A DNA stretch of 44,585 nt, from the NCBI GenBank assembly GCA_026983795.1, contig JALSTI010000198.1:1-44585 (forward strand). The letters are read 5' to 3'. The translations under genes and the position numbers were made by a program. The DNA is from Melioribacteraceae bacterium (GTDB taxonomy: Bacteria; Bacteroidota; Ignavibacteria; Ignavibacteriales; Melioribacteraceae). Shown in pieces: positions 28,938 to 33,756 of the stretch. Each line of letters begins with the position of its first letter. The first letter of the stretch is position 1. The notes under the pieces were generated by a model. The model saw only the letters and a list, made by a program, of their open reading frames with translations. It had not been told where the DNA came from and did no database searches.

Positions 28938-30296
28938 ATGTTTATAGATTCCCACGCTCATCTGTTCTACCCTAATTTTAACGGCGATTTGGATGAAGTT
29001 ATTTACAGAGCAAAAAAATCAAACGTCAATTATATAATTGTTCCCGGCACAAACTTGGCAACTTCTGCCGAAGCGGTAGCACTGGCAAACAAATATGATA
29101 TGATTTATGCCGCAGTAGGAATTCACCCGCACGATACCAACGAATGGGAAGATGATTTAATACCAAAACTTGAAGAGTTAATCCAAAATCCTAAAGTTGT
29201 TGGAATTGGCGAAATTGGATTGGATTATTATTACGATTTTTCACCCAAAGAAATACAAATTGACGCTTTCAAAAAGCAAATCGATTTAGCTCTTAAACAC
29301 AACCTGCCAATAATTGTGCATAACCGCGAGGCAAGTAAAGATATAATGAGTATAATTAAAGAATATAAAAACACTCCTTTGCGAGGTCAGTTTCATTGCT
29401 TTGCGGGTTCTTTACAAGATGCGCGGGAATTAATTGAAATGCGGCACATCATTTCTTTTACAGGAAATATTACTTTTAAAAATGCAGATAATTTACGCAA
29501 AGTTCTTGCAGCCGTTAGCGTTGAAGATTTATTGCTGGAAACCGACTCGCCTTTTCTTACACCGGTACCGCACCGGGGTAAAAGAAACGAACCGGCTTAT
29601 GTAGAACTTGTAGCGAAAAAAATTGCCGACGAAAAACAATTAAGGATTGAAGACGTGGCCAGAACAACAACTTATAACGTATTTAAAATTTTCGGAATAG
29701 GTAAAAAACCGCCGCTGAGTTTTACCTATCAAATAGGACAAAATCTTTATATCAACGTTACAAACAGATGTAATGCAGATTGTATTTTTTGCGACAGAAA
29801 AGGCGATGCGGTAATTAGCGGATACAACCTTAAAATGGATAAATCCCAAGAACCGCCGGCGGAAGTTTATATTAAGGAAATCGGAGACCCTACTAAATAT
29901 AAAGAAATTGTATTTTGCGGTTACGGCGAACCTACTATAAGATGGGACGTGGTTAAAACCGTTGCTAAATTTGTTAAGGAACACGGCGGCAAAACACGTT
30001 TGGATACCGATGGACACGGAAACTTTATTAATAAACGTGACATTACACCGGAATTTGAAAATTTAATCGATACGGTTTCAATAAGTCTTAATTCTGCCGA
30101 ACCGCAGCAATATGCAAAAATTATGAGAGTTGATCCCAAGTTACACAACGAAATGATTTCATTCGCTAAGAAAGCTAAAAAATATTCCAACGTGGTAATG
30201 TCCGTTGTAGGTCTGAGCGAAGTTGATACTGAAAAAGCCAAAAATTTGGTTACAAACGAAATTGGCGTTAAATTCAGAGAAAGAACATATTTTTAA
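28938..30296 (+). CDS. TatD-family hydrolase fused to a TatD-associated radical SAM domain
   Basis: A 452-residue two-domain protein. Residues 1-255 are a TatD metal-dependent hydrolase/DNase with all metal ligands in place: His6 and His8 (DSHAH), Glu92 (GEIGLDY), His128 (IVHNRE), His153 (QFHCF) and Asp203 (ETDSPFL). Residues 262-452 form a compact radical SAM domain with the cluster motif Cys278-x3-Cys282-x2-Cys285 (CNADCIFC), a GYGEPT motif and DTDGHGN. It matches the known family of radical SAM proteins found beside or fused to TatD, whose reaction is not known. An AAGGAGA ribosome-binding site nine bases upstream supports the start. Confidence 0.93.
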   Translation: MFIDSHAHLFYPNFNGDLDEVIYRAKKSNVNYIIVPGTNLATSAEAVALANKYDMIYAAVGIHPHDTNEWEDDLIPKLEELIQNPKVVGIGEIGLDYYYDFSPKEIQIDAFKKQIDLALKHNLPIIVHNREASKDIMSIIKEYKNTPLRGQFHCFAGSLQDARELIEMRHIISFTGNITFKNADNLRKVLAAVSVEDLLLETDSPFLTPVPHRGKRNEPAYVELVAKKIADEKQLRIEDVARTTTYNVFKIFGIGKKPPLSFTYQIGQNLYINVTNRCNADCIFCDRKGDAVISGYNLKMDKSQEPPAEVYIKEIGDPTKYKEIVFCGYGEPTIRWDVVKTVAKFVKEHGGKTRLDTDGHGNFINKRDITPEFENLIDTVSISLNSAEPQQYAKIMRVDPKLHNEMISFAKKAKKYSNVVMSVVGLSEVDTEKAKNLVTNEIGVKFRERTYF

Positions 30297-31790: not shown

Positions 31791-32642
31791 ATGGAAACAG
31801 AATTCAAAAAATTTACAGTTCACGCCTCCCCGTTTAATCCGGATTTGATATCAAGTTTAATGTGGGAATTAAATATTTCCGGCATTGAAGAGTTGGAAAA
31901 TACTTTAATTATTTATTCTGAACCGGATTCGGTTTCTAAATCCGATTTAGAAAACATGTTAGCAAAACTTGTAAAAGAAAATATTTTAGATACTTTTTCA
32001 GTAGCCGAAGATAAAGTGGAAAATAAAAATTGGAATGAAGAATGGGAAAAGAATTTAGAAATTATTGAAGTTACGGAAAAAATTGTAATTAAACCTACAA
32101 ACAAAAAGTACAAACCAAAAGAAAATCAAATTATTATAACAATCGATCCAAAAATGTCGTTTGGCACCGGAAGGCATCAAACAACAAAACTAATGTTAAT
32201 CCTTTTGGAAAAATATTTTAATAATCCGGAAAAAGTTTTGGATGTGGGAACCGGTACGGCAATTTTATCAATTGCGGCAGCAAAATTAGGCGCTAAAAAA
32301 GTAACAGGAATTGATATTGACGAATGGTGCTTTATAAACGGAACAGAAAACGTTCGGAAAAATAACGTTGCCGGGACAGTAAGAATAGAGAAATTGGAAA
32401 TTAATAAATTAAATGATAATGATTTTGATTTGATTCTTGCCAATATTAATAAAAATGTACTGTTAAGTATAAAAGAAGAAATTAAAAACAAACTTAAAAA
32501 AAATGGACTATTGATTCTTTCCGGTATTTTAAATACCGACGAAAGTTCAATAGTCCAAAATTTTACTGATCAACAAATCCTCGATATTGAAATATACCGA
32601 ATGGATGAATGGTCAGCAATTGTTTTCAGGAAAGCAAATTAA
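31791..32642 (+). CDS. prmA: Ribosomal protein L11 methyltransferase
   Basis: A 283-residue SAM-dependent methyltransferase that methylates ribosomal protein L11. An N-terminal substrate-recognition domain is followed by NWNEEWEKNLEIIEV. The catalytic domain has the signature DPKMSFGTGRHQTTKL, SAM loop VLDVGTGTAILSIAAAKLGA and LANINKNVL. I chose the ATG at 31791 because the open frame continues back inside dacB for 54 more codons with no homology-like sequence, and the chosen start matches the family's normal length. Its stop codon shares bases with that of the convergent marR gene. Confidence 0.95.
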   Translation: METEFKKFTVHASPFNPDLISSLMWELNISGIEELENTLIIYSEPDSVSKSDLENMLAKLVKENILDTFSVAEDKVENKNWNEEWEKNLEIIEVTEKIVIKPTNKKYKPKENQIIITIDPKMSFGTGRHQTTKLMLILLEKYFNNPEKVLDVGTGTAILSIAAAKLGAKKVTGIDIDEWCFINGTENVRKNNVAGTVRIEKLEINKLNDNDFDLILANINKNVLLSIKEEIKNKLKKNGLLILSGILNTDESSIVQNFTDQQILDIEIYRMDEWSAIVFRKAN

Positions 32643-33067
32643 GACGCTAATTTTTTTAATAATTTAGCTAATGTCTTTTGTTCGTTTTCACTCAATTTAG
32701 TTGCAAATGACTGAATGTTTTTTACATGTTCCGGGAAAATTTTATCTAATTTTTGTTTTCCCTTAGCTGTAATTTCGGCGTTAATTACTCTACGGTCTTG
32801 TTTTGAAGGAACTCTTTTTACCAAGTCTTCTTTTTCCAAGTTGTCGATAACACAAGTAATATTCGCGCCGGTAACATTCATTTGCTCGCTGATTCTTTTC
32901 AAAGGAATGCTGCCTTTGGCAGTTAAAACTTCCAACACTCCAAATTGGGGTCCGGTAAGTTTATGACTGTAAAGATGTTTTGTGTGAGATCTGCGAACAG
33001 CTTCGTATGCTTTTGCTAAGCTTTCCCACAATTCCAGTGCACTTTGTGCTTTTGTTGATTTTGCCAT
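32639..33067 (-). CDS. MarR-family transcriptional regulator
   Basis: A 142-residue winged-helix regulator. The core reads LTGPQFGVLEVLTAKGSIPLKRISEQMNVTGANITCVIDNLEKEDLVKRVPSKQDRR (in segments from about 40 to 95), matching the MarR recognition helix and the conserved D-R-R wing. The ligand and targets cannot be inferred. A strong AAGGGAG ribosome-binding site lies six bases upstream. It sits 17 bases after the YgjP-like gene on the same strand, so the two probably share a transcript. Confidence 0.93.
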   Translation of the reverse strand: MAKSTKAQSALELWESLAKAYEAVRRSHTKHLYSHKLTGPQFGVLEVLTAKGSIPLKRISEQMNVTGANITCVIDNLEKEDLVKRVPSKQDRRVINAEITAKGKQKLDKIFPEHVKNIQSFATKLSENEQKTLAKLLKKLAS

Positions 33068-33084: not shown

Positions 33085-33756
33085 TTAGTTAAAAAATGAT
33101 TTAAGTTGTTGTTTATATATTTTATAATCGGGCATAATCTCTTCAACCAAATTCCAAAATTTTTTAGAATGATTCATTTCTTTTAAGTGACATAATTCGT
33201 GAATAATTATATAATCAATAACTTTACTATTAAAATACATAATTCTATAATTAAATGAAAGATTCCTTTTACTAGAACAACTTCCCCATCTTGTTCTTTG
33301 ATTTTTTATAGTAATCCTATTGTAACTAAAACCATATTTTCCGGAAAAAAATTCAACCCTTTTAGGAATATATTTATTGGCTTCTTCTTTTAACCAATTA
33401 TTATAATGTTCTTTAATGCTTAACCTGTTATTACCTAACGGTAAAAATAACTTATTATTAAATAAAGTTGGTTTTAAATTGTTCGAGAACAAATTATTTT
33501 CGGGAATAACGCTTAAAATATTTCCTAAATAATAATAGCGATTTTGTTTATTATTTACAAATCTAAAATATTTATACAACCAATCTTTTTTTTCAAATAA
33601 AAATTTTTCAGCAGTTAAATAATTAACCAATTTCGGAATAACAAGTTCAATTTCACCGTCTAAATTTATTCTTAACTGAACATATTTAGCTCTTTTACTT
33701 CTTTTTACGAAATATGTGAATTCTTGATTGTTTATATTTATTGATTTATTATTCAA
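33085..33756 (-). CDS. YgjP-like (M48-type) metallopeptidase domain protein
   Basis: A 223-residue protein of the YgjP/DUF45 family, related to SprT/WLM zinc peptidases. The zinc motif is HELCHLKEMNHSKKFW (about 187-202), giving H-E-x-x-H with a third His. The preceding RWGSCSSKRNLSFNYR is highly conserved in this family. The N-terminal half is the usual beta-rich region (RSKRAKYVQLRI, GEIELVIPK). No signal peptide is present, so it is cytoplasmic. The substrate is unknown. It leads a two-gene unit with the MarR regulator and is divergent from menF. Confidence 0.9.
   Translation of the reverse strand: MNNKSININNQEFTYFVKRSKRAKYVQLRINLDGEIELVIPKLVNYLTAEKFLFEKKDWLYKYFRFVNNKQNRYYYLGNILSVIPENNLFSNNLKPTLFNNKLFLPLGNNRLSIKEHYNNWLKEEANKYIPKRVEFFSGKYGFSYNRITIKNQRTRWGSCSSKRNLSFNYRIMYFNSKVIDYIIIHELCHLKEMNHSKKFWNLVEEIMPDYKIYKQQLKSFFN

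Follow-up and report, generated by a model that had tools for sequence, protein, structure and literature searches.

The window analysed here is a stretch of 44,585 nucleotides from a Melioribacteraceae bacterium of the class Ignavibacteria. On its forward strand it carries a gene (28938–30296) that begins with ATG and runs without an internal stop for 452 amino acids, encoding a TatD nuclease domain fused to a radical SAM domain. Residues 1–253 (28938–29696) form a Group II (HxH) TatD metal-dependent nuclease domain (PF01026, TIGR00010). The last helix of this domain in the predicted model (residues 237–252), together with a short linker of some 8 residues (about 254–261), is encoded at 29646–29720 and contains D239 and R242, a signature of fused forms. 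A minimal radical SAM domain (TIGR04038) follows at residues 262–451 (29721–30290, as spanned by the HMM), with a six-strand core in the model. Within it lie a CxxxCxxC [4Fe-4S] motif, composed of C278, C282 and C285 (29769–29792), and a CGYGE motif (29916–29930), in which C327 (codon 29916–29918) directly precedes GxGE.

The identity of both domains is clear from curated profiles. With Pfam, TatD_DNase matches residues 3–253 (E 2.7e-87) and Radical_SAM residues 272–429 (E 2.2e-16), whilst with NCBIfam the fusion protein scores 287.8 bits against a cut-off of 206 for TIGR00010, and 205.4 bits (207.4 for the radical SAM domain alone) against a cut-off of 129.7 for TIGR04038, where the match extends over positions 2–191 of the 192 in the model. 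An earlier, sequence-only reading of the locus had proposed that TatD and radical SAM domains share one polypeptide, and this was confirmed. The AlphaFold2 model of the whole fusion is a confident two-domain structure (mean pLDDT 94.9, pTM 0.88), and the pTM suggests that the two halves are placed in a defined mutual position. The fusion is present as a single copy and is the only TatD found in its own genome, where the one other match to the protein is a radical SAM stretch, named by eye as MoaA-like.

The gene sits in an ordinary core-gene setting, with genes for a purM-like AIR synthase, a TonB-dependent receptor, an S13 D-Ala-D-Ala carboxypeptidase and PrmA on the same strand. Past prmA we observed a YgjP-like metallopeptidase and a MarR-type regulator (33085–33756 and 32639–33067 (−), respectively), and nothing unusual.

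The fusion is genuine, and neither chance nor an assembly error, because full-length relatives cross the junction both in other Ignavibacteria (57–76% identity) and in other phyla (40–47% identity). A local assembly or frameshift artefact, which the sequence-only reading had named as one finding that would refute it, could draw on a near relative in which the two halves lie in separate ORFs; however, the identical junction in dozens of independent genomes from several phyla refutes it and we regard it as hardly credible. The protein was also compared with plasmid records, 117 of which match it, with none covering 80% of the query and with residue 282 being the furthest reach among the ten matches listed.

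The TatD half was placed in Group II because it has the HxH motif, which, according to passages of PMC10085689, defines a group that includes E. coli YcfH and YjjV and human TATDN2 and TATDN3. The same passages attribute 3'-exonuclease and AP endonuclease activity to YcfH and TATDN3, and very little to YjjV (PMC10085689). All six metal ligands of the group (H6, H8, E92, H128, H153 and D203) are present and are invariant in 46/46 aligned fusions, the alignment comprising 46 of 58 open full-length fusions from several phyla. A fold search with the whole model returned S. aureus TatD (6l25; Z 41.0, rmsd 1.1, 254 residues aligned, 44% identity). Compared with YcfH, YjjV, TATDN3 and S. aureus TatD (6l25/2gzx), the half therefore has the same HxH motif, ligands and fold, whereas the fusion alone adds a C-terminal radical SAM domain and the last-helix D239 and R242. 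By analogy with these enzymes, it is a predicted phosphodiesterase that would act as a 3'-5' exonuclease and AP endonuclease. PF01026 was found in 14/14 named control genomes, and with TatD nearly universal its co-occurrence with radical SAM proteins is uninformative. To our knowledge, the physiological role of TatD is still poorly defined.

Radical SAM domains with a CxxxCxxC motif make a 5'-deoxyadenosyl radical, and the usual SAM-binding GGE motif of these enzymes lies where GxGE sits in the fusion protein. C278, C282 and C285 are invariant in 46/46 fusions and in 218/218 radical SAM domains aligned from fused, adjacent and unlinked forms, which lends no support to the concern that the cluster motif might be missing. 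Directly before GxGE is a fourth, near-invariant cysteine, C327 (217/218 rows), followed by G328 and G330 (both 218/218) and E331 (213/218), and the residues Y271, N273, T275, R354, G359, D378, S383, F409 and R449 are each kept in 217 or 218 of the 218 rows. The MoaA-like protein of the same genome has FTGGEP at the place of CGYGE, with a threonine where the fusion has C327. The sequence-only reading had noted the intact TatD ligands and CxxxCxxC motif and from these expected both halves to be active, and the residues that each half would need do appear to be present; its inventory of motifs stands, but it missed both C327 and the existing curated model TIGR04038. One set of invariant residues is common to fused, adjacent and unlinked radical SAM forms, and because this set is kept with or without an attached TatD, the three arrangements probably carry out the same reaction.

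As the whole-model fold search probes the TatD half only, the radical SAM half was folded and searched separately. Modelled alone with AlphaFold2 (pLDDT 95.0, pTM 0.90), it has a six-strand core with nothing beyond the sixth strand, which in the model of the whole fusion spans residues 445–449. The fusion thus has no C-terminal auxiliary-cluster (SPASM-type) domain, the chain stopping right past the sixth core strand, and C327 is the last cysteine of the window protein, in agreement with the earlier description of a half of about 190 residues that lacks an extra-cluster domain. The closest solved fold is the pyruvate formate-lyase (PFL) activating enzyme 3c8f (Z 16.6, rmsd 2.5, 176 residues aligned), with 8fo0, 3cb8 and NifB (7jma; Z 16.0, rmsd 2.1, 159 residues aligned) tied within 1 of it, and these are followed by viperin (5vsm, Z 15.0), BlsE, TYW1, RlmN, MoaA (2fb2, 14.1) and QueE (5tgs, 12.8). 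The PFL activating enzyme, viperin, MoaA and QueE have the radical SAM core fold in common with the fusion, at 16–18% identity in the fold alignments, but the fusion family differs from them in its invariant C327, R354 and R449 and in having no C-terminal extension. Amongst profiles, the second-best radical SAM match after TIGR04038 is TIGR04100 (rSAM_pair_X), which matches over almost its full length but, at 156.2 bits, stays below its cut-off of 262, and the radical SAM half falls short of the NCBIfam cut-offs for GTP 3',8-cyclase MoaA (NF001199, 45.5 bits against 231) and for PFLA. We considered whether the nearest folds and profiles point to a class of substrate, and set this aside, as they are a mix of protein activases, cofactor makers, nucleotide enzymes and peptide maturases in which none stands out.

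Profile matches also bear on whether the protein could be a phage-defence enzyme akin to QatD, which is a TatD, and to prokaryotic viperin, which is a radical SAM enzyme, since the PADLOC model of QatD matches one half (E 4.3e-23) and that of pVip the other (E 8.8e-11). However, the corresponding NCBIfam scores are far under their cut-offs, at 85.3 of 230 bits for QatD of the Qat anti-phage system and 37.9 of 180 bits for prokaryotic viperin (NF038283), and the gene is surrounded by core genes. Moreover, PF01026 is found in 59/59 sampled genomes of the window's order and lies in a fusion-length frame of 452–492 amino acids in 56 of them (the matches in the remaining three are incomplete and lie in some cases at contig ends), which is not the pattern of a patchily distributed defence gene. 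A role in defence is thus very improbable.

The pairing of TatD with this radical SAM domain is already on record and is not new, because the NCBIfam model TIGR04038 (TatD family nuclease-associated radical SAM protein) bears the TatD link in its name. The window protein exceeds the cut-off of that model, has both CxxxCxxC and GxGE and is linked to a TatD (a criterion that we took from the family name), and nothing tested sets it apart from the family, in which it represents the fused form and other members are adjacent or unlinked. No paper on the pairing was found in PMC full texts, where most subscription papers are absent, and in passages of PMC3478167 the TatD and radical SAM terms label distinct genes within a table of proteomics data. 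What is new here are the survey counts, the changing outer neighbours, C327, the D239/R242 signature and a caution that comes from sister families.

The sequence-only reading had also raised the spread and frequency of the fusion as a question, and the survey finds it to be widespread, recurring in Ignavibacteria, Nitrospirota, Nitrospinota, Omnitrophota, Deltaproteobacteria and Zixibacteria. In the window's own phylum, TIGR04038 exceeds its cut-off in 65/296 genomes. Outside one family, f24, there are 43 positive genomes, 42 with the match in frames of 452–605 amino acids and one with it at a contig start; TatD was directly seen in-frame in 8 genomes of the phylum besides that of the window, the rest being judged by frame length and, within the window's order, also by the presence of PF01026 in a frame of fusion length. 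In f24 the radical SAM domain is found as a short separate frame only (198–336 amino acids) in 22/22 positive genomes, and no TatD was found in 16 stretches from 15 of the genomes, inspected up to about 8 kb per side and less at contig or cut ends. In two f24 genomes, G141 (L181, contig 26) and G201 (L182 and L183), TIGR04038 occurs twice as a stand-alone gene, in each case with one copy next to genes that by eye resemble those of ABC transporters and with a second copy elsewhere.

Beyond this phylum, TIGR04038 is found in 41/100 genomes of Nitrospirota (the phylum of G298, a Thermodesulfovibrio MAG), with TatD in-frame in 40/41 and the remaining match beginning at a contig end, and in 19/97 genomes of Omnitrophota (the phylum of G299), all 19 of which are fused. 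The phylum of a Deltaproteobacteria MAG (G300) gives matches in 27/148 genomes at the search threshold, 26 of them over the cut-off, of which 26 are fused and 1 is a contig-edge fragment. The phylum of a Clostridia MAG (G296) is positive in 61/249 genomes, and here linkage was examined in 41 of the 61, a set that includes the 30 best-scoring genomes, over flanks of 1.5–8 kb that in some cases were ended by the contig. None is fused; in 15, TatD immediately precedes the radical SAM gene on the same strand, less than 300 nt away, in 2 it lies within 3 kb, and 24/41 have no TatD in the inspected flank. By our estimate, which assumes one or two TatD among some 2,500 genes, chance would give about 0.02 such adjacencies in 41. 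TatD and radical SAM genes are likewise adjacent without fusion in Endomicrobia. The linkage of the two is therefore far above chance. Methanosarcina acetivorans is the single one of the 14 named control genomes to match TIGR04038 at the strict threshold.

Some apparent variants were considered and rejected. Selenocysteine at TGA in L020, L022 and L024 was discounted, as the stop-free match terminates in the final one or two codons of the stretch and the codons look like ordinary stops. An apparent metG-TatD-radical SAM triple fusion, in frames of 851 and 968 amino acids (G869 and G907), has letters 5' of TatD that appear by eye to be out-of-frame high-GC sequence, and for a 493-amino acid frame in G354 (L146) no TatD was found in flanks of 1.5 kb or about 8 kb.

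The genes around the linked pair vary by lineage whilst the pair persists. Amongst 36 loci of Ignavibacteria, purM lies upstream in 24, and the S13 peptidase and prmA downstream in 28 and 25, respectively, whereas phosphoglycerate mutase is upstream in 7/13 loci of Nitrospirota, and metG is upstream in 3/3 loci of Deltaproteobacteria, 5/5 of Endomicrobia and 3/7 of Omnitrophota, mostly with PSP1, holB and tmk; these are counts to which several contigs too short for neighbours to appear contribute. TatD is the sole partner common to all linked lineages. Around unlinked homologues the recurrent neighbours are lineage-bound, with ksgA in 7/24 Clostridia stretches and a protein that looks small and membrane-like in 8, and with ABC-type and other proteins in 7 stretches of f24 (all named by eye), and none is common to all groups.

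The history of the fusion was followed in a quick tree of the radical SAM domain (119 rows, 40 open forks), from which about two thirds of the Ignavibacteria loci L033–L066, the duplicates L112–L117 and identical sequences had been left out. On this tree the label 'fused' changes at least 4 times, compared with 39.3 in shuffles, and the fusion has thus repeatedly arisen or come apart whilst the pair itself was retained. One clade of 49 fused rows, together with the split L043, covers Nitrospirota, Nitrospinota, Omnitrophota and Ignavibacteriota. The fusions of Deltaproteobacteria group with the unlinked f24 copies, and that of Zixibacteria, on a long branch, sits with Clostridia. L043 (10001–11359) is a close, Melioribacter-like relative within the fused clade that has TatD and radical SAM domains in two ORFs, their HMM ends 13 nt apart, and this state would reflect either a later split of the fused gene or an error in the sequence.

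Fused forms of several phyla are also marked by the last TatD helix (29652–29663 codes for residues 239–242). D239 is present in 69/76 fused forms, 0/22 adjacent unfused forms and 2/37 other TatDs, and R242 in 68/76, 3/22 and 1/37, respectively, where 21 of the 37 TatDs without a link come from one class. The Zixibacteria fusion does not have this signature, which may represent a docking face or the shared ancestry of the fusion.

The same comparison bears on whether the radical SAM half modifies or activates TatD itself, as the PFL activating enzyme does its partner. This would be consistent with the presence of that enzyme amongst the closest, tied folds and with TatD being the one partner common to the linked lineages. 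However, outside the last helix and linker zone of the fused forms, no TatD residue was specific to the radical SAM-linked TatDs, and no modification site emerged when linked and unlinked TatDs were compared; S102 (92% of linked against 32% of unlinked TatDs) is also found in 5/6 unlinked TatDs of Clostridia. In addition, the metal site is unchanged in TatDs without a radical SAM half (37/37). On balance we consider that modification of TatD is improbable.

A caution on reading function from the fusion comes from sister families. In 13/15 chosen genomes of the same class without TIGR04038 over the cut-off, the main TatD lies in a frame of 484–640 amino acids with a different tail, in which, as judged by eye, the last TatD helix is followed by a hydrophobic, signal-sequence-like stretch, an Ala-Gln-like site and an exported, possibly beta-barrel, domain. 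A search with one such tail gave matches in 16/119 genomes of the class, with TatD in-frame in 16/16, and its only Pfam match is to OmpA_membrane, which is sub-threshold (E 0.049). These TatD-tail frames (L208, L211, L213, L215, L217–L219 and L221–L226; L234–L250) have neither a stop nor a conserved internal start codon. A nuclease of the cytosol placed ahead of a signal sequence is an odd arrangement, in which the last, basic helix of TatD would act as the n-region of the signal and cleavage by signal peptidase could give two proteins out of one gene. As the same TatD is in frame with an exported-looking domain, its C-terminus accepts different partners, and a fusion such as that described here can arise without shared chemistry.

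The sequence-only reading had taken the fusion as a sign that the two halves act on the same substrate, for example a damaged nucleotide or DNA end. Such a step would be conjecture. The f24 copies and 24/41 Clostridia copies are unlinked in the stretches inspected and the sister TatDs are differently fused, such that fusion alone makes a weak case for a shared substrate. The two halves could instead be independent housekeeping enzymes with unrelated reactions, neighbours in an operon that were merged by loss of a stop codon. The sister TatDs are consistent with this, as are the retention of the same invariant residues in a radical SAM protein that is often unlinked and the generic housekeeping nature of the locus in several lineages (tmk, holB, metG, ksgA). 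Against this, the pair persists though the outer genes vary, unfused adjacency recurs in Clostridia and Endomicrobia, and the fused label has changed repeatedly around a kept pair. We regard two independent enzymes as possible, but doubtful.

We tentatively favour, at somewhat short of an even chance, the proposal that both coupled activities serve one housekeeping route of nucleic-acid maintenance, in which C327 is a candidate for an active-site thiol. The C-terminal half would be a minimal radical SAM enzyme, using a bound [4Fe-4S] cluster and SAM to generate the 5'-deoxyadenosyl radical, and it may act on a nucleotide or nucleic-acid end exposed by the TatD nuclease, or prepare an end that TatD then removes. 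Covalent joining of the halves would not be required, because the fused, adjacent and unlinked versions have one set of invariant residues. A more specific version, in which an undescribed radical reaction, using the thiol of C327 near SAM, has as its target an abasic site or a 3' end that is damaged or modified, which TatD then excises, would make the protein an oxygen-independent counterpart of end-cleaning repair enzymes; this we consider unlikely.

For the family, the survey supplies fusion frequencies together with the caution that fusion alone is no proof of a shared substrate, and the fusion is a compact, one-chain radical SAM enzyme whose invariant residues form a clear set of targets for mutation. 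A radical SAM partner of predictable chemistry, kept beside TatD in several phyla and here fused to the sole TatD found in the genome, provides a direct handle on the purpose of TatD.
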